This document shows positions 46,612-55,259 of a stretch of 64,000 nt of DNA, one piece after another. The translations under genes and the position numbers were made by a program. This DNA is from Lishizhenia tianjinensis (GTDB lineage: Bacteria > Bacteroidota > Bacteroidia > Flavobacteriales_D > Crocinitomicaceae). The stretch is taken from contig CALQIX020000018.1 in assembly GCA_943330745.2 (NCBI GenBank), positions 1 through 64,000 of the forward strand. Reading direction: 5' to 3'. The first letter of the stretch is position 1. Each line of letters opens with the position of its first letter. Under the pieces are notes generated by a model. The model saw only the letters and a program-made list of their open reading frames with translations. It did no database searches and was not told where the DNA came from.

Positions 46612-47577
46612 TCATTGATGCTGATAACATCTTCCGTTAACATTGGAAGTAGAGCGTCTGCACCGAGTCCCTTTTTTTGTTATGCCGCTGCATTGAACGC
46701 CCGTTGTATTTGATTTATAGGTTTTGCTAGTTGATTTCCATGACCAGCAGGAAATACAAACGGTTTTTTCTAGTTGAGCTTCTTGCTCATCTTCCAGCAA
46801 ATGAAAAAAATCGATACCGGTAATTTTTTCTACGCTATCAATAGATAGGGCAAATTGTTGTAAGGGCAAACTGGAGGATGCGTTGGGTAATACAAAGCCA
46901 ATTCCTTTGATGGAAGGTTCTCTGTAGTCTAAGATTACTTTGTAGTAGTAGTTCGGAACGGCCACTTGATTTAATCCAATTGTGGGGAGTCCTGGGGTCA
47001 AAACAGGCCCGGTTACCACATAGATCGATTCATTTTCATTGGCCCAGGAGCGTACTAAACTTTCTAAGTTCTTCCATATTCCACGATTGAATCCCGGTAG
47101 TTGGGGACTCATATTTGAAAAATAAAACGATTCAATCATTGTGGTAGATGACCAACCCATATCTGCTGCTGGGGCTAAATGTCCTCGATCAAATCCGGAT
47201 TTTTTATAGTCCGTATCCGTGGCAGAACCGGTTGAAACTGCTGGGTCTACCAAAAATTTATTGGTTCGTTCAAATGCTTTTTGAGTTTCTTGTGCTGTGA
47301 GTTCATAAGCCACCCAATTCGCTTGTTCGGCCGCTTCGTTGTAGGACAAGGTATATCCGGTATGTGTGATAACTTGTTCCCCTTGTCGAAAAAAGGGGAT
47401 CTCAAGGTGTTGGATCAGTGAATCGGTCGTTGATTCCTCCGCATGTTGTTCCACTGCTGCTTCGGGTAAATCCCGTTCGACTTTGGGAGTAGGTTTGTTG
47501 GTTTCCGTGCAGCTTTCTCCAAACAACAACAACAGAACAATTCCCGAACTAAAAAAAAGGGTCCTTAACATTTTCAT
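46612..47577 (-). CDS. DNA/RNA non-specific endonuclease lipoprotein (NUC1) with Cys-rich tail
   Basis: A 321-residue lipoprotein with signal MKMLRTLFFSSGIVLLLLFG and lipobox ESC. The nuclease domain (about 70-270) has the NUC1 active-site motif DRGHLAPAADM near 126, plus YFSNMSPQLPGFNRGIWKNLE with the Mg-binding Asn. It would degrade DNA and RNA at the cell surface or periplasm for nutrient gain or competition. Beyond the normal end is a ~30-residue tail with pattern C-SGITKKGTRC-RRST...GRC-YQHQ, a small zinc-knuckle-like Cys/His motif seen at the end of other Bacteroidota nucleases. The frame extends to 47664, but ATG 47577 (or 47571) gives the lipoprotein signal. Confidence 0.88.
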   Translation of the reverse strand: MKMLRTLFFSSGIVLLLLFGESCTETNKPTPKVERDLPEAAVEQHAEESTTDSLIQHLEIPFFRQGEQVITHTGYTLSYNEAAEQANWVAYELTAQETQKAFERTNKFLVDPAVSTGSATDTDYKKSGFDRGHLAPAADMGWSSTTMIESFYFSNMSPQLPGFNRGIWKNLESLVRSWANENESIYVVTGPVLTPGLPTIGLNQVAVPNYYYKVILDYREPSIKGIGFVLPNASSSLPLQQFALSIDSVEKITGIDFFHLLEDEQEAQLEKTVCISCWSWKSTSKTYKSNTTGVQCSGITKKGTRCRRSTSNVNGRCYQHQ

Positions 47578-47838
47578 CCATGTGGGGTATAGGTTCTGTT
47601 TACTACCTGCGAATTTAGAACAATTCACTTCCTGAACAAAATGGTGGATGATTTTACATTTCATTAAGTATCAGATCAATCAATAATCAACCTACTTTTC
47701 TATTTCCAAGATAGCATCTAAAATACGTTGAACCAGATTTCTATTGAGCGGGATTGCTTGCCAGAACAGATTTCATAGTATACCCAACGGACATTATAAC
47801 GTTCAATTTTAGGATTCGATGAAATTTGTTTGTATTTC

Positions 47839-48795
47839 CTAACTGAATTGGTATTCGGTTAATCGTTGCGCTCCGAATTTCATCAAAACACCTTGATCTA
47901 CCGCCCATTTTAAATCTCTACTGGCTGTCGGTGCTGAAATCGTTTTAAAATGTATTAAATAGTCTTTTCTGCTGAATTTGTTTTTGCCGATTCTATCTCC
48001 ATATAAGCGGATTCTGTCTTCTGTATGAAGAGTGACTGTTTGTGATTGTAAAAGTTCTTCTAATGCTTCTAAAAGTATCTCAAGCATGAATTCAATAAAT
48101 GGTGTTGAATGTCCCTTTTTATCAGACTCGGATAATTTACCGTAATATTCTGCTTGTCTTAATTTGATAAGGCGCTCTACAGGTAGAAATTCAAATACGG
48201 GATATTGTTGCATTAAAATGAGCGTTTGCCACAGCCTACCCATGCGACCGTTGCCGTCTAAAAAAGGATGAATAAACTCAAACTCGTAATGAAAGACACA
48301 ACTTTTTATTAAAATCAAATCTGCATCGTTTTTTAGGTATCGGAACAAGTCTTTCATAAGTCCATTAACTATTGAACCATCAGGAGCAATATGTTCTACT
48401 TTTGAACCTTTAACAATACCTACATTTTTAGTGCGAATTCGACCAGCTTGTTCAATTAGTCCATTCATAAGTATGGCATGGGCTTTTTCTAAATCTTTTA
48501 ATAGTAAGGGATTAAAGGAATTGAGTTGCTCATACACCGCAATTGCATTTTGCACTTCAATAATATCTTTTTTGGGTGCCAGAACTCGTTTATTATCTAG
48601 TAATGCTGTAATTTGAGCTTCAGTTAACGTGTTTCCTTCTATTTCCAACGAGAACTTAATTGTTTTAATCCGATTTTTTTTACGCAGTTCAGTGGGTGGT
48701 TTATACAAATGCGTACTGTTGATTTCTCCTATTCGTTCTGAAATAGAAGCGATTAACCGCAATATTTTATCAGTTAGTTGATAGGGAGGTTTCAT
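47839..48795 (-). CDS. Fic-family AMPylase with N-terminal inhibitory helix and C-terminal winged helix
   Basis: A 318-residue cytosolic protein. The Fic active-site motif HPFLDGNGRMGR is at about 175-186 with catalytic His and complete anion-binding loop. An N-terminal inhibition motif S49-LEI-E53-G54-N55 blocks ATP in class II Fic proteins. The C-terminal ~70 residues (KNKFSRKDYLIHFKTISAPT, LKWAVDQGVLMKFG) form a winged helix. Fic enzymes transfer AMP to target hydroxyls. The winged helix suggests DNA binding and autoregulation, and two tandem 11-bp near-palindromes lie in its own leader at 48809-48832. A RhuM remnant is encoded just upstream on the same strand. Confidence 0.92.
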   Translation of the reverse strand: MKPPYQLTDKILRLIASISERIGEINSTHLYKPPTELRKKNRIKTIKFSLEIEGNTLTEAQITALLDNKRVLAPKKDIIEVQNAIAVYEQLNSFNPLLLKDLEKAHAILMNGLIEQAGRIRTKNVGIVKGSKVEHIAPDGSIVNGLMKDLFRYLKNDADLILIKSCVFHYEFEFIHPFLDGNGRMGRLWQTLILMQQYPVFEFLPVERLIKLRQAEYYGKLSESDKKGHSTPFIEFMLEILLEALEELLQSQTVTLHTEDRIRLYGDRIGKNKFSRKDYLIHFKTISAPTASRDLKWAVDQGVLMKFGAQRLTEYQFS

Positions 48796-48861: not shown

Positions 48862-49008
48862 TTATACCTCCTTATCTTTTTGAAAAGTGGGGAGTAAAAA
48901 AAGCTTGAGAATACTTATAGTATTTAACCAAACTTGTTCATCTTCTATCCGCACTTCAATGTGCTCAACCAGTTCGTTGGGGCGGTAAATTAGGATTTCA
49001 TTTTTCAT
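48862..49008 (-). pseudogene. RhuM-family N-terminal remnant
   Basis: A 48-codon frame, MKNEILIYRPNELVEHIEVR then IEDEQVWLNTISILKLF, matches the conserved N-terminus of RhuM/virulence-type proteins (pattern E-I-x-I-Y, IEVxxEDExVWL, then a helix ending LF). The rest of the ~330-residue family protein is gone; the frame ends after KDKEV. Frequent neighbours of such genes are Fic/Doc proteins and mobile DNA. Family assignment rests on about 35 residues. Confidence 0.6.
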
Positions 49009-49180
49009 AACTCACCTGAATATGGCGAAAATCTGTGAGAATCGAAAGTGTGAATAGGAAACGATAAAATTTAAAAATTTATTATTGATTCATGTACAAA
49101 ATTGAATTATAGTAGTTATTTATTTCTCACAGTTAACATTTTTCTTGAATATTAGTTAGATTTACTTTTTCTTTAATTAA

Positions 49181-49810
49181 ATGAATCAAATGAGGATAAT
49201 TCTTTTCTTAAGTACTATTGTTTTAAGCCTAAACACGATGGGGCAAACATCAAGTATGAAACAGCCCAACTGTAGTGAAATAAAAGGTTTGCAAACTTGT
49301 GATAATAGACTAATCCCTGAAAATTATACCGGAATAATGTTTTGTTGTTTAAATGGAAAGGTCAAAGAATTACGTAACTACAAGAACGGCATAGTAGATG
49401 GTTTTTGTATAGAATGGTTTGAGAATGGCCAAATTAAATCAGAAATAAATTTTAAAGAGGGTAAATTTCATGGCCTATCAAGATGGTGGTATGCAAATGG
49501 TCAATTTAGTATTGAAGCAAATTACAAAGATGGTGAGCATGAAGGTTCAGTAAGAAGTTGGTTCGAGAATGGTCAAATATCTCAAGAGGAAAATTACAAA
49601 AACGGTTTAGAAAATGGCTTAATAAGATGGTGGTTCGAGAGTGGAAAACTCGAATTTGAAGGAAATTACATCGAGGGAAAGAATGATGGTTTGTCGAGAA
49701 GGTGGTACGAAAATGGTCAAAAAGATATTGAATGGATTTACAAAGATGGTGTGATAATTAGCGAAACTTGCTGGGACGAAAATGGGAATTTAATTAAATG
49801 TGTAAACTAA
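49181..49810 (+). CDS. Secreted MORN-repeat protein (YwqK-like)
   Basis: A 209-residue exported protein (signal peptide ending NTMGQ; Met4 is an alternative start). Seven to eight MORN_2 repeats of about 23 residues follow, for example CIEWFENGQIKSEINFKEGK, SRWWYANGQFSIEANYKDGE and RSWFENGQISQEENYKNGLE. The conserved W-(F/Y)-x-N/S-G-x core is present throughout. Databases often name this family YwqK antitoxin after B. subtilis, but most Bacteroidota members have no proven antitoxin role. The gene is 9 bp before a VRR-NUC nuclease gene, so the two are likely co-expressed. Confidence 0.82.
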   Translation: MNQMRIILFLSTIVLSLNTMGQTSSMKQPNCSEIKGLQTCDNRLIPENYTGIMFCCLNGKVKELRNYKNGIVDGFCIEWFENGQIKSEINFKEGKFHGLSRWWYANGQFSIEANYKDGEHEGSVRSWFENGQISQEENYKNGLENGLIRWWFESGKLEFEGNYIEGKNDGLSRRWYENGQKDIEWIYKDGVIISETCWDENGNLIKCVN

Positions 49811-49819
49811 TAAATACAA

Positions 49820-50518
49820 ATGAGTAAGCCAGAATTAGAATTTAATTTAGACATCCAAAAATTATATGAAAATACGATTTCTTTATTAACCGTTGAAGCG
49901 GAAGAATTAAAACAAAAATCTAAATCACTCTATGAATATAAAAATCAGTTTTATTCTGTAGAAGAATTTAGCTCCCTTTTTTTTAAAGAAAATGGATATC
50001 TTACTTACTACGGGGTTGATTTTTCTCAAGTATTCTCTTATATTTCTTTTAATTTTGATTATGACACCTCTGTTTACGAAAATTATATTTTAGGAAGTAA
50101 ATTAATTGATTCTAAAGCACTTCATCAAAAGTTTAAGCAACTAGAGAGATTAAGGAATATCACGCTGGAAAACAACGCATTAAGTGATGAATTAATTTTC
50201 TTGGCTCAAGAACTTATGGAGCTGTATTATTCTACTTACGAGCCTAAAAAGTTAAAATTAATTTCCATTTTTGATTTTGTTCGAAGCTTGCCACAAGACG
50301 AATTAATTCGATTGATAAGATTTTATTACAAAATAAGTGGTTTAAAACGAGGTACACCAGATTTATTAATTTTTAAAGAAAGAAAATATTGGTTCGTTGA
50401 AGTAAAATCCTCAAATGATTCATTAAGTAAATATCAAAATTTCTTTATTCATCATTTTCAAGAAATCGTAGGCGAAAATATTTTTGTTTTAAATGTGGTA
50501 GATAAGAATTGGAGTTGA
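49820..50518 (+). CDS. VRR-NUC-domain nuclease-like protein
   Basis: A 232-residue protein without signal peptide. The C-terminal ~60 residues are a VRR-NUC (PD-(D/E)xK) domain: GLKRGTPDLLIF (catalytic Asp near 179), KYWFVEVKSSNDSLSKYQ (E-x-K near 193-195), and the ending FVLNVVD. The N-terminal ~160 residues are helical and not recognised. VRR-NUC domains occur in phage and repair nucleases (Fan1, phage Holliday-junction enzymes). All catalytic residues look intact. The gene follows a MORN-repeat gene by 9 bp and converges on an unknown gene 10 bp away, within the accessory stretch. Confidence 0.8.
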   Translation: MSKPELEFNLDIQKLYENTISLLTVEAEELKQKSKSLYEYKNQFYSVEEFSSLFFKENGYLTYYGVDFSQVFSYISFNFDYDTSVYENYILGSKLIDSKALHQKFKQLERLRNITLENNALSDELIFLAQELMELYYSTYEPKKLKLISIFDFVRSLPQDELIRLIRFYYKISGLKRGTPDLLIFKERKYWFVEVKSSNDSLSKYQNFFIHHFQEIVGENIFVLNVVDKNWS

Positions 50519-50528
50519 GGATTTAAAA

Positions 50529-51383
50529 CTAATTTTTCGGGAAAATTTTTAAAAATTCTGAATCTAAAATTTCAAAATAGGCATATTTAAAATCATAAAT
50601 ACCTGAAACAAACATATTATAAGTAATTGTCAATCCATTATATTTTTCATAGTAATCATCAACCTTATGACTAAAGGAATAGCATTCAGCTTGTTTGTTT
50701 TTTTTCGGTTCAGATAAATCTAACCATTTACCATTAACAAATGTTATCTTCTTTCGGCAAGTCCTACAAATGTTTTTTGATTTACTGGTAGATGGGAGAT
50801 AAAATCTTTTAAAATTAATGCCACTACTTACGGTTGATTTAACTGGGAAAGTGTATACTAAATAAGGTTTTTTACCCAATTCTAATCTAATCAAATTAAT
50901 CAGTTCATTGTCAGAAATTTTTTCATTAAAAGCAACTATAGTAGTTGAAGAAAGCTCTATTAATGAATCACTTGATTTCAGTTTGTTAAACTCATTTTCA
51001 TCAAAAATATAAGCATAATTTTTCTGTTCTATATTCCAATCTTGTCGAATACTAGGGTAAGTGTAGTGTCCCTCATATTTTTTAACAAATAAAACGAAAT
51101 AATTTTTTTCATTTATGGATAACATTTTGGAGTGAAAGAAAATAAAGTTTTGATCAATATGAGACTCTAATATACCGGAGCTATAATTATTTTCCTCATT
51201 TGAGAGGAAATTATCATGACTAATCCACTTTTCTTTTATATTATCATAAACCCAACCTTTAGCCTTGTAGATAGTATCTGACGATTTATTGAATTTTAAC
51301 TCTTCGGCATTAATTCTTTCTTGACAAAAGATCATGTTAGAAGTAAAAAAAACTATAATTATTAAAGAAATAGTATATTTCAT
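50529..51383 (-). CDS. Exported protein, unknown function
   Basis: A 284-residue protein with a signal peptide (MKYTISLIIIVFFTSNMIFC; the final Cys could be a lipobox). The body has aromatic beta-type segments and one CxxC in KNICRTCRKKITF (about residue 205), possibly a small zinc or redox site. No family recognised. Very AT-rich, like its neighbours. It lies 40 bp from the decayed mnmE end copy and has no clear -7 box, so its native promoter may have been lost at that junction (inference). Confidence 0.6.
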   Translation of the reverse strand: MKYTISLIIIVFFTSNMIFCQERINAEELKFNKSSDTIYKAKGWVYDNIKEKWISHDNFLSNEENNYSSGILESHIDQNFIFFHSKMLSINEKNYFVLFVKKYEGHYTYPSIRQDWNIEQKNYAYIFDENEFNKLKSSDSLIELSSTTIVAFNEKISDNELINLIRLELGKKPYLVYTFPVKSTVSSGINFKRFYLPSTSKSKNICRTCRKKITFVNGKWLDLSEPKKNKQAECYSFSHKVDDYYEKYNGLTITYNMFVSGIYDFKYAYFEILDSEFLKIFPKN

Positions 51384-51422
51384 GTATTTTTTTGGATAAA
51401 AATAGTGTTTTTTTCCGGGAAA

Positions 51423-51503
51423 TTATTTCCAATACAACCTTTTAGAAAACCGCCCAAAAATATCGGTATCAATATCAATCTGACCAGTGATATTCCCGAG
51501 TTG
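51423..51503 (-). pseudogene. Decayed second copy of the mnmE 3' end (direct repeat)
   Basis: This 81-bp segment aligns with the last 84 bp of mnmE (53203-53286) in the same orientation. The first 47 nt differ at only three positions, all synonymous (Q-L-G-N-I-T-G-Q-I-D-I-D-T-D-I in both). The rest carries small deletions, so the frame ends in LYWK instead of the conserved FCIGK. The copy begins 3 bp after the hipA stop, so together with the intact mnmE end it brackets hipBA. This is the expected scar of an element that integrated at the mnmE 3' end. Confidence 0.85.
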
Positions 51504-51506
51504 TAT

Positions 51507-52802
51507 TTATACCAATCGAAAGGCACGCTTCATTTGTTCTATTTCGCTGTTGCTGATGCCATACTTCCTAGCAACAGTGCGCCAGTTGGCTATTTCATTT
51601 TGTATTTGCTTTAAAAGGATCGTTGCAGAATCTTTTTTCAATTGGTACAGATGAGCTGTATTGAGAGCTAAAGTAATATCTAACTCATTGCTATTTTCGG
51701 AGATATTTAAGGTTAGTCCATAGCCCATCTCATTCGGATTCATGTCAAAAGCAGGAGACAAACGCCATCCTTTTTCTGATAGTAAAAATCCATGATTACG
51801 CATGTGATCGTCTGTGTTTGAAACCAAAATGTTAAATACCAACCTACGCCAAAGCTGTTCCAAATCATCTTTTGCCGCAGGACTTTGTTGTATAATGAAT
51901 CCAACTAAATCAAGGTATCCAACACCTTCCTCGTGATCTACTCCATCCTGAAGTCCCAACAATGTCATGGCTGAAGCAAAGTGAATACGCCTTTGATCCG
52001 CTGTTCTATCAAATCGTTTGGATAAAAAAGTATGGTGCTTCCCTGAAAATTTTTGTAAACGTGTTTCTGCAACATGAATGCCGCAAGATTTTGCCAATTC
52101 GTTCAATACCATTTCCCAAGCACCCACATCTTTTTCATCTCGTGAACTTGGGAATTTTGCAATCCATAATTGTTCTTTATCATCAATCACACTGGCTTTT
52201 GGTCTTGCTCCTCCCAACGAAGATCCTGGATCAATTAGCATACTTAACCAACGTGCATATTCGGGATCATTGACAGCATCATCATGCTCTAATTGCAAAC
52301 TGGCGTACTCTAATTCGCGAAGAGAAGTCCATGGTGGAGTTGCCATTTGTTTTTGATCATTCATGAATAGTCCATTGTCATCCATAAATCGTATACCGCC
52401 CATTCGATGTCCGTCAAAAACTCCCAACAAAAAATCACTTTCAAAAAGCGTTCTTTCCTCTCTTCCGTCTTTTTTCGCTTGCCAAGCCTCTCTTCTCCGC
52501 ATCAATAGTCGTCCCCAACGATCGGGCGAGGAATCAAGGAAAATCCCAAAATTATTTTTCTCCAATGGTAGATATTGTTTACCCTTATAATAACCCAAGT
52601 GTGGATCCAAAAATAAAATCGGATTTTGTTTATTTATCCACGTCTCCGCATATTCAAATGAAAATATTTCCTTCCCACGTAAACGTTGAGCAGTTAAAAA
52701 CCCCATTAATTGAATTTTTTCCAAGAAATGCCAATCTGCATAAACCCTTATTTTTAGAGGCTCTTCATTCAATCGTTTGGCAACTTGGTCGCTTTGTTTC
52801 AT
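51507..52802 (-). CDS. hipA: HipA-family serine/threonine kinase toxin
   Basis: A 431-residue kinase. The N-terminal HipA_N region is followed by an ATP-binding loop near SSLGGARPKAS (~195-205), IAKFPSSRDEKD, the catalytic SNTDDHMRNHGFL (~327-339), and the metal-binding AFDMNPNEMG (~350). In E. coli, HipA phosphorylates glutamyl-tRNA synthetase and causes persistence; target here unknown. All catalytic residues are present. Its ATG overlaps the hipB stop by 4 bp, the usual coupling of antitoxin and toxin. The stop is only 3 bp from the mnmE-end copy, so the gene end coincides with the element boundary. Confidence 0.92.
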   Translation of the reverse strand: MKQSDQVAKRLNEEPLKIRVYADWHFLEKIQLMGFLTAQRLRGKEIFSFEYAETWINKQNPILFLDPHLGYYKGKQYLPLEKNNFGIFLDSSPDRWGRLLMRRREAWQAKKDGREERTLFESDFLLGVFDGHRMGGIRFMDDNGLFMNDQKQMATPPWTSLRELEYASLQLEHDDAVNDPEYARWLSMLIDPGSSLGGARPKASVIDDKEQLWIAKFPSSRDEKDVGAWEMVLNELAKSCGIHVAETRLQKFSGKHHTFLSKRFDRTADQRRIHFASAMTLLGLQDGVDHEEGVGYLDLVGFIIQQSPAAKDDLEQLWRRLVFNILVSNTDDHMRNHGFLLSEKGWRLSPAFDMNPNEMGYGLTLNISENSNELDITLALNTAHLYQLKKDSATILLKQIQNEIANWRTVARKYGISNSEIEQMKRAFRLV

Positions 52803-53119
52803 GATTTTTTCGATTGTTTGGGTACACGATTTTTGGTCATAATCCCAGCATCTTGTAGCCTTCTTCCCAAGGGATCAGCCGCTGCTACCGCGGACAAATC
52901 TTTCTCTAATCCCAAAACAAAAAGTACTTGTAGATAACTTCCAATAGCAACTGTTGGACTACCTTGTTCAATATTATGAATCGTTTTTCGACCAAGCCCT
53001 GTGCGTTCTGCAATTTGCTCCGCACTCAGTTTTCGTCGTAAGCGCGCTAATTGAAGGTGTTCACCCAATTCTTTCAAAATTTTCAAATTTTTTGGTAATA
53101 TCGCCACTGCTTTTTTCAT
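52799..53119 (-). CDS. hipB: HipB-like XRE-family antitoxin
   Basis: A 106-residue helix-turn-helix protein. The Xre/Cro fold is at about 17-75 (HLQLARLRRKLSAEQIAERT, GLGRKTIHNIEQGSPTVAIG), followed by a helix and a basic C-terminal tail (MTKNRVPKQSKKS). HipB-type proteins bind and neutralise HipA and repress their own promoter. A -7 box (53140-53147) and a short CTTATAAG palindrome (53129-53136) lie directly upstream. It reads in the same direction as mnmE, 83 bp after its stop, and overlaps hipA by 4 bp. Confidence 0.9.
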   Translation of the reverse strand: MKKAVAILPKNLKILKELGEHLQLARLRRKLSAEQIAERTGLGRKTIHNIEQGSPTVAIGSYLQVLFVLGLEKDLSAVAAADPLGRRLQDAGIMTKNRVPKQSKKS

Positions 53120-53139
53120 ATAAAACGACTTATAAGAAA

Positions 53140-53147
53140 CAAATATA
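53140..53147 (-). promoter_or_regulatory. -7 box TATATTTG of hipBA
   Basis: Exact TAnnTTTG match, 20 bp upstream of the hipB ATG. A CTTATAAG palindrome (53129-53136) follows it and a pair of TTATATG direct repeats (53162-53168, 53174-53180) precedes it; both are candidate HipB sites. Confidence 0.55.
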
Positions 53148-53202
53148 GTTGATTTTGTCCGTTATATGACACATTATATGTTTTTTATTTGATTTTGAGC
53201 GA

Positions 53203-54561
53203 TTATTTGCCAATACAAAACTTCGAAAAAATCGCACCTAAAATATCGGTATCGATATCAATCTGACCGGTAATATTCCCGAGTTGAAGCATGGCCTCGC
53301 GGATGTCCATCGCCACAAAATCTCCTGTGGTTCCGTTCTCTAGTCCGTTCAAAGCTTGTGTGAGTGCAACTGCTGTTTTTTGAAGTGCTTCGTGGTGGCG
53401 TGCATTGGCCACAATGATGTCGTTTTGTAAATCAAAATTACCGATTACCAATTCTACCAATCGCTGTTTCAAGGCTTCAATTCCATCGCCGTTTTTGGCG
53501 CTAATGGTAAATGCATCCGATACGGTTGGCTGGGCAGCATCCACTTTGTTGAGTATAAACTCTATTTTTTTCTCCGGATAATTGTTTTCCAACTCCGTTT
53601 TCCAGGTTCTTACTTTTTCCGCACTTGTTTCAACCGTGGCATCTGCCATGCACAACACAATGCTAGCCTGCTCAATCTTTTGCTGTGAGCGTTCAATTCC
53701 CAGCGCCTCAATGGTTTCCGTTGTTTCGCGGATTCCAGCTGTATCTATCAATCGGAAGAGAATTCCTTCTATATTCAATGTTTCTTCTATCACATCGCGC
53801 GTGGTGCCGGCAATGTTGCTCACAATGGCTCTATCTTCGCCCAACAATTGATTCAACAAGGTGCTTTTTCCTGTATTGGGCGCTCCCACAATGGCAACCG
53901 GAACTCCATTTTTCAAGGCATTACCCAATGAGAAAGAATTAGCAAGTCGTTCCACAATGGCCAACACTTCTTTTACCAATTTTTTCAATTGCGTACGGTC
54001 GGCAAATTCCACGTCTTCTTCACCAAAATCCAGTTCCAGTTCTATCAAGGCGGCAAATTGAATCAGCTTTTCACGTAATTCTTGTAATTGGTTAGAAAAT
54101 TGTCCGCGCAACTGTCGCAAGGCCACATCATGCGCTTGCTTGGATTGGGACGCAATGAGATCCGCCACGGCTTCTGCCTGCGACAAATCCATTTTTCCGT
54201 TCAAAAAAGCACGTTGGGTAAATTCACCCGGTTCTGCCAATCGAAACCCTGAAGCGCAAAGCGTTTGCAATATTTGTTGCTGAATATATACCGATCCATG
54301 GCATGAAATCTCCACACTTTCCTCGCCGGTAAAGCTTTTCCCTTCGTCAAACACGCTGATGAGTACTTCATCTATCGCCTTATTAACCAAGTCCGAAAAA
54401 ACGCCAAAATGCAATGTATGACTATGTTTTTCAGTCAATTCTTTCGAGAAATTTTTTGAAACCAAGGCTTTACTCCCTGCACCCGAAACCCGAATAACCG
54501 AGATAGCTCCCACACCGTTGGCAGTGGCTAATGCGCAAATAGGATCGGAATTGTAATTCAT
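53203..54561 (-). CDS. mnmE: tRNA modification GTPase MnmE (TrmE)
   Basis: A 452-residue enzyme that with MnmG installs the carboxymethylaminomethyl group on U34 of certain tRNAs. The N-terminal formyl-THF-binding domain (DPICALATANGVGAISVIRV) is followed by a helical domain with an inserted G domain: G1 GAPNTGKST near 227, then IAGTTRDVIEE, DTAGIRET and NKVD. It ends in the invariant FCIGK with the catalytic Cys at 450. The frame runs 48 codons further upstream, but a -7 box at 54566-54573 lies inside that part, so ATG 54561 is the start. The 3' end is duplicated downstream of hipA. Confidence 0.96.
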   Translation of the reverse strand: MNYNSDPICALATANGVGAISVIRVSGAGSKALVSKNFSKELTEKHSHTLHFGVFSDLVNKAIDEVLISVFDEGKSFTGEESVEISCHGSVYIQQQILQTLCASGFRLAEPGEFTQRAFLNGKMDLSQAEAVADLIASQSKQAHDVALRQLRGQFSNQLQELREKLIQFAALIELELDFGEEDVEFADRTQLKKLVKEVLAIVERLANSFSLGNALKNGVPVAIVGAPNTGKSTLLNQLLGEDRAIVSNIAGTTRDVIEETLNIEGILFRLIDTAGIRETTETIEALGIERSQQKIEQASIVLCMADATVETSAEKVRTWKTELENNYPEKKIEFILNKVDAAQPTVSDAFTISAKNGDGIEALKQRLVELVIGNFDLQNDIIVANARHHEALQKTAVALTQALNGLENGTTGDFVAMDIREAMLQLGNITGQIDIDTDILGAIFSKFCIGK

Positions 54562-54734: not shown

Positions 54735-55259
54735 ATGAAACCGATTATTTTTTTTGTGGCAATTATATTTGCTACTGGATTAAAAGCTCAAATTGTTGAA
54801 GAAAAAATTTTAGAGGATGGAACGCATCACATCACCATAATTCCTAAAAGTTATTCAAAAGAAGAACTTGCGCAATTTAAACCAAGAAGAATTCCAACGA
54901 CGCAAGAAGTGAAGGATAACCCAACTCTTTTATTCTCAAATTCATGCGTTCATAAATTAGATTCTGAATTGAAGATAGATGTTGAAGTAGATAGTTCACT
55001 AGCGGATATAACCAAAGTTCTGTTTGAGGAGCATGTTGGCTTGTTAAGCGATGCGACAGGCAATGATCTGGTGAGTTTTCATCAAATTTGGACAATGGAT
55101 GATTCCATGGCGAATTATCGGCATGAGGGTTTCTCTAAAAGTTTCATAGAAATGTTGCGAGAAAACAACCTTCAAGGTCATTTTGAAAATTCAAAGTTCT
55201 ATTGCCAAGAGTTTGAGTATAATGACAATTATTACTTAGTGGCTGTTTTGGATAAATAG
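54735..55259 (+). CDS. Small exported protein, unknown function
   Basis: A 174-residue protein with a signal peptide (MKPIIFFVAIIFATGLKAQ). The mature part is acidic, begins with a beta stretch (VEEKILEDGTHHITIIP) and has two Cys (SNSCVHKLD and KFYCQEFEY) that could pair. It has no recognised domain and no sorting domain. It is divergent from mnmE; no -7 box was found. Confidence 0.65.
   Translation: MKPIIFFVAIIFATGLKAQIVEEKILEDGTHHITIIPKSYSKEELAQFKPRRIPTTQEVKDNPTLLFSNSCVHKLDSELKIDVEVDSSLADITKVLFEEHVGLLSDATGNDLVSFHQIWTMDDSMANYRHEGFSKSFIEMLRENNLQGHFENSKFYCQEFEYNDNYYLVAVLDK

Follow-up and report, generated by a model that had tools for sequence, protein, structure and literature searches.

In a 64,000-nucleotide stretch of Lishizhenia tianjinensis (positions 1 to 64,000 of contig CALQIX020000018.1, here called the window), the 3' end of mnmE is repeated, and a hipBA toxin-antitoxin (TA) gene pair lies between the two ends. 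Relatives show this end of mnmE to be a hot spot of site-specific insertion in the genus, and the hipBA pair probably (at a rough probability of 0.8) came as cargo of an element of this kind, its attachment core being the last 15 bp of the gene. Sequence comparison shows the hot spot, the core itself (TGTATYGGNAARTRR), deduced from occupied and unoccupied sites in relatives, the presence and absence of hipBA at this core in relatives, the horizontal spread of small units, and the island-like right ends of two hipBA units. Genomes, contigs and loci carry handles beginning with G, C and L, and the window lies on contig C18 of genome G000.

A direct repeat of the mnmE end around hipBA

The mnmE (trmE/thdF) gene occupies 53203..54561 on the minus strand and encodes 452 aa from an ATG at 54561, with Pfam domains TrmE_N, MMR_HSR1 and MnmE_helical. 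Its last codons, C-I-G-K-stop, form the 15-bp core TGTATTGGCAAATAA (53203..53217, minus strand). A first-pass annotation had reported that the last 84 nt of the gene (53203..53286, minus strand) recur in the same orientation at 51423..51503, and repeat search, blastn and shuffles confirm this 81-nt copy as real. The repeat search aligned 51454-51503 with 53237-53286 at 46/50 identity, blastn gave 93.6% over 47 nt (E 8e-15), and the mnmE-proximal 47-mer was matched at 44/47 in the copy, with the next best match at 28/47 on the same strand and at most 26 on the other. Across 100 mononucleotide shuffles of the window the best 47-mer match averaged 26.2 and never exceeded 29. When the whole copy is aligned with the mnmE end, 14 mismatches and 3 gap columns appear, most of them distal, which agrees with the good match followed by decay that had been described. 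Its far core (51423-51437) is degraded; the core on the mnmE side is exact. A chance match or codon-bias effect was rejected as practically impossible, because 44/47 lies far above the shuffled maximum and because the copy in one sister genome, G334, translates to 27/27 mnmE residues.

As also first described, hipB and hipA are the sole genes between the two mnmE ends, and the copy (minus strand) begins 3 bp past the hipA stop. The hipB gene (52799..53119, minus strand) encodes an HTH antitoxin of 106 aa (Pfam HTH_31, 2.3e-9), with its start codon 83 bp past the mnmE stop, and hipA (51507..52802, minus strand) encodes a HipA-like kinase of 431 aa (Pfam HipA_C, 4.8e-51) that is the predicted toxin, although its match to HipT/HipA chains in PDB is weak (best E 9e-7). 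With the antitoxin gene running up to or into that of the HipA_C kinase, the pair has the arrangement of a hipBA type II TA module. No tRNA gene that could serve as a target is present in the window.

Insertions at the mnmE 3' end in relatives

Among 37 flanks of the genus (each of at least 300 nt), the DNA directly past the mnmE stop falls into 23 groups. One tyrosine integrase family (E 1e-50) occurs in 13/86 genus genomes at 16 places, and at 12 of these it lies 169-623 bp downstream of mnmE, so that the proposed search for tyrosine recombinases beside the gene bears out, for this genus, the suggestion that its 3' end is an attachment site. All six members that were scanned have PF00589 and Phage_int_SAM_5, and five have Arm-DNA-bind_5 as well. 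Islands with the core at both ends measure 19.2 kb (G011), 39.8 kb (G129) and 35.6 kb (G073), and G054, from another genus, likewise carries an integrase next to mnmE, with a second exact core at a distance of 20.5 kb. A foreign-looking mnmE end on C144 of G014 was set aside as possible contamination, and further exact pattern matches in G004 (C11 and C18), G013 (C25), G012 (C25) and G014 (C155) were left unassigned. Two versions of the mnmE 3' end are found in the one assembly of G003 (L033 on C25 and L032 on C59), one of them only ~174 bp long at a contig end. Contigs break at or within ~80 bp of the core at L059/L093 (G036), L086/L087 (G057) and L181 (G078), as would be expected if the site were mixed or repeated in the sampled population.

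The hipBA pair is one kind of cargo at this site. From 547 HipA loci 80 were kept, and mnmE was found in the flanks of 8 of these (a ninth tblastn match, L169, with 29% over 95 aa, was taken for a different GTPase and discarded); by synteny G020 counts as one more. Where hipA is at least 71% identical, 7/16 loci were placed at mnmE. The clearest comparison is that of G010, in which a hipBA insert of ~1.84 kb splits mnmE from a flank that directly follows mnmE in G029 (flanks 74-84% identical) and G013 (76-77%), with the flanking alignments overlapping by 16 nt at the core. A second comes from a HipBST-like unit that stands directly past the mnmE core in G315 and past hipBA, right arm and core in G007; from the first base of the core the two versions are 97.1% identical over 1736 bp, and mnmE is 92.8% identical over the 960 nt of the gene present in G007.

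Further hipBA loci belong here. At L113, where mnmE is 52% and hipA 73% identical to those of the window, hipBA is flanked by the mnmE core, which has one mismatch, and by an exact core at a distance of 1.8 kb. At L114 mnmE is followed by a 140-aa ORF with part of Phage_int_SAM_5, which we read as a broken integrase, then by hipBA, by HipS/HipT-like genes and by a one-mismatch core. In G102 (L111/L196) the order is mnmE, integrase and then hipBA ~4.7 kb on, inside an integrase island, and that island stands beside two different Hip kinase genes. In G020 hipBA lies past an island-type right arm and core; the gene downstream, which we take to be an S46 peptidase gene, neighbours mnmE in G010, G013 and G029. 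The 3' end of hipA in G020 (L104, at 7287) reads ATCGGGAAGTAA and then ACGCC, which agrees with the mnmE core and with the way several islands begin, and this hipA may share its stop codon with a core. The hipB start lies ~60-140 bp past the core in G000, G010, G020 and L113.

The right ends of two hipBA units resemble those of the islands. In the final 100 columns of the alignment, the right end of hipBA in G007 matches islands that carry their integrase on the same contig at 83/94 (G129), 83/93 (G073) and 66/94 (G011), and the G010 end matches them at 79/100, 79/99 and 72/100, respectively. The G010 end also matches a contig end in G008 at 96/100, the integrase of G008 being on another contig.

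Other compact units occupy the same site, not all of them TA pairs, and the proposed check of relatives for other cargo at mnmE found it, in these units as in the integrase islands. In G040, AbiEi/AbiEii lie between mnmE and a core 2.17 kb away, making this, with G010 and L113, a unit flanked by both cores. The HipBST-like unit is 90% identical between G310 and G315, whose mnmE genes are 59.8% identical. G036 and G078, with mnmE 58.9% identical, have in common a unit with genes for a secreted-type and a thioredoxin-like protein and for one left unassigned. Its two versions agree at 97% over 1873 bp and at 93% over 784 bp, and ~1.1 kb is missing from the inside of the one in G036. In G034 a 3' remnant of hipA stands between mnmE and a HipBST-like set. 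By these identities, small units are shown to have spread horizontally. A viral carrier was considered and rejected, as no HipA relative among viral contigs exceeds 50% identity (8 loci); one right-arm pattern had no exact match in viral contigs.

Sister genomes and the origin of the copy

Two sisters, G014 (CAMBBW010000103.1) and G334 (CAMAQX010000053.1), have the same mnmE-hipBA-copy order and the same junction between hipA and the copy as G000, with mnmE 92-94% identical among the three, and the arrangement looks vertically inherited. The copy ends in an exact core in G014 and G334, and is decayed in G000 and G014. In G334 it differs from that genome's own mnmE end by 7 substitutions, all of them synonymous (simulated P ~3e-5 under neutrality). 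Since fourfold-site divergence between the sisters is 0.20-0.22, a freely drifting copy in G334 should show amino-acid changes. We infer that this copy may have served as a working mnmE end until recently, that recombination may have renewed it, or that it may come into use whenever hipBA is missing.

Past the copy the three genomes differ. In place of 57 bp in G334, the window has 2.4 kb (49040..51422, no strand assigned), and in place of ~100 bp in G334, G014 has 1.6 kb. Each of the two stretches begins where the copy ends distally, and they are different DNA, with no match at E 1e-4 except for 71 bp on the far side. Each holds a MORN-repeat gene and the two proteins cluster, so the stretches are not wholly unrelated. 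In G189, the nearest relative found to be free of hipBA (mnmE 86.8% identical at the nucleotide level), the mnmE end is single and intact; a search at E 1e-100 gave no close HipA, and the 7.7 kb looked at contain no copy.

Under the reading we prefer, an element with hipBA would exchange DNA inside the C-I-G-K-stop codons of mnmE, which would leave the coding of the gene intact. The hot spot serves islands of 19-40 kb with a tyrosine integrase beside mnmE and also compact units that have no integrase, several of them with only a TA pair. The window element now lacks an integrase, and its two limits are the mnmE core and the 81-nt copy of the mnmE end. The copy would be a former attachment-site boundary, one of 81-84 bp instead of 15 bp. 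An integrase presumably acted in trans or was lost after insertion, and the hipBA pair would persist through addiction.

Several observations weigh against this reading. The window unit lacks the right arm of ~190 bp, and its copy is 81 nt long, not ~15, with its own core degraded; no core was seen at the far ends of the 2.4-kb and 1.6-kb stretches past the copy. With the arrangement common to three sisters, no movement is seen within the lineage, and G189, its flank being unrelated, is not a strict empty site. An integrase is also lacking: PF00589 matches in G000 fall at six places (contigs C35, C9, C29, C7, C13 and C19), none on C18 and none belonging to the mnmE-associated family at E 1e-50, in keeping with the earlier statement that the window holds no integrase. 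At one of these places (C29:1177-1605 and 1769-2293) another HipA-like gene adjoins the Phage_integrase match. A search at the same threshold gave no member of this family in the twelve genomes of the genus that have hipBA/HipBST or another compact unit at the spot (G000, G014, G334, G010, G007, G020, G315, G310, G036, G078, G034 and G035, some incomplete); G040, L113 and L114 stood outside that search. Among the relatives, the right end at L113 is weakly similar to those of the islands (54-62 of ~90), 9/16 of the nearest hipA loci were not placed at mnmE (several on short contigs), and the HipBST-like unit showed no right core. The G007 mnmE gene is on another contig and broken by its end, so the place of hipBA there is deduced from a flank shared with G036, and the contigs of G036 and G078 break at the core, so the contact of their unit with mnmE is deduced from core and flank.

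The strongest rival, which we put at a little under even odds, is that a full integrase island carrying hipBA eroded to the addiction module and its boundary, hipBA itself being immobile and the window holding a remnant of the cis-mobilizable kind (CIME, see below). The integrase and hipBA of G102, the broken-integrase ORF, hipBA, HipS/HipT-like genes and one-mismatch core of L114, and the hipA remnant of G034 speak for it. The distance from core to hipB in the four loci named is tidy for random erosion, however, and closely similar compact units of other kinds stand in species whose mnmE identity is 59-60%.

The first-pass annotation had proposed that a hipBA element inserted at mnmE by an exchange ~84 bp ahead of the stop, giving the gene the element's own 84-bp end and displacing the former one, now the copy. 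That hipBA units insert at mnmE is upheld by G010 against G029 and G013 and by G007 against G315; the replacement of the last 84 bp and the displacement of an old end are not demonstrated, and we regard this version as on the unlikely side. The synonymous-only differences in G334 do suggest that both ends evolved as real mnmE ends, and another long copy exists in G057 (L085, C10, 2625-2730), decayed, ~2.6 kb from a short core and profile-matched over 62 nt. But the boundaries resolved in G010, G007/G315, G036/G078 and G011 lie inside the last ~15 bp, so that ~15 bp, and not 84, would be expected to remain after a clean displacement; the synonymous pattern fits an element-borne or recombination-refreshed copy equally; and distances to G189 do not separate native from foreign among the current mnmE end and the copy. 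It would fit equally well that mnmE kept its native end and the element carried the copy in.

It is improbable that the arrangement arose without a mobile element, through a local duplication or an illegitimate recombination event that fused part of mnmE to hipA. A contig without integrase, a unit without an arm and a junction common to three sisters speak for it, but the same gene pair stands at the same site with core boundaries in other species. A conserved vertical order without empty sites had been named as evidence against insertion, and half of this was found, the order being common to the sisters and looking vertically inherited. The comparison of relatives gave no strict empty site for the window's lineage, G189 offering only its single intact mnmE end beside an unrelated flank. 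Vertical conservation alone is insufficient as an account, hipBA being both present and absent at the core in relatives.

A bolder extension of the cargo reading, which we hold only tentatively and think rather unlikely as a whole, would make the mnmE core a platform for cassettes. TA-only satellites of 1.8-2.2 kb, with two attachment ends and no recombinase, would borrow an island integrase in trans and could stack. In the window's lineage the 84-bp copy would be kept usable as an mnmE end because loss of hipBA between the repeats would make it the real 3' end of the gene.

Neighbouring DNA and known systems

The 2.4-kb stretch past the copy contains a 284-aa ORF (50529-51383, minus strand), a VRR-NUC gene (49820-50518, plus strand) and the MORN gene (49181-49810, plus strand). 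Beyond it, the 71 bp common to G014 (48922..48992, minus strand; in G334 within a longer aligned block) resemble the start of what we take to be a rhuM-like gene, a name given from the reading of its translation and from a G014 gene that PADLOC calls PDC-S05. Further downstream of the hot spot are genes for a Fic/DOC protein (47839-48795) and a DNA/RNA non-specific endonuclease (46612-47664). Upstream of mnmE, a 174-aa ORF (54735-55259) lies in ~750 bp that are missing from G014, so the other side of mnmE is variable too.

The trmE/mnmE hot spot known from Gammaproteobacteria (PMC9035990) is thereby seen to extend to Bacteroidota, with integrases of another make-up, and several species carry at mnmE compact units with little but a TA pair. 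It can now be tested whether addiction modules are non-autonomous mobile elements or the last survivors of eroded islands. Among the literature matches listed, from which subscription literature is mostly absent, there was no description of mnmE islands in Bacteroidota or of TA-only units at mnmE.

In Gammaproteobacteria the trmE/mnmE 3' end is described as a hot spot with 18-bp attachment sites, tandem arrays of unrelated islands and TA cargo (PMC9035990). The elements related to Salmonella genomic island 1 (SGI1) are like those seen here in their target, in such arrays and in TA cargo; the present ones differ in belonging to Bacteroidota, in integrases with Phage_int_SAM_5 and mostly also Arm-DNA-bind_5, and in including compact units of few genes and no integrase. 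The window itself has the location at the mnmE 3' end and no integrase of its own beside mnmE. A cis-mobilizable element (CIME), as summarised in PMC5704250, has no integration or transfer genes, keeps both attachment boundaries and can accrete in tandem. The window unit is similar in having only hipB and hipA between its boundaries and no genes for integration or transfer, but here there are units with one TA pair in no more than 1.8-2.2 kb, and compact units that are closely alike stand in distantly related species. In Shewanella putrefaciens, according to the account in PMC8978831, hipAB stabilises a composite genomic island of 48 kb; the likeness is that of hipAB as island cargo, with a maintenance role there, whereas that pair is carried by GI21, homologues of which insert in yicC. 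The gene pair finally resembles the hipBA and hipBST modules sketched in PMC8262856, which join an HTH antitoxin to a HipA_C kinase or have the split HipS/HipT form: an HTH antitoxin and a HipA_C kinase, the toxin predicted from sequence, are found in the window, and HipS/HipT-like genes in its relatives.

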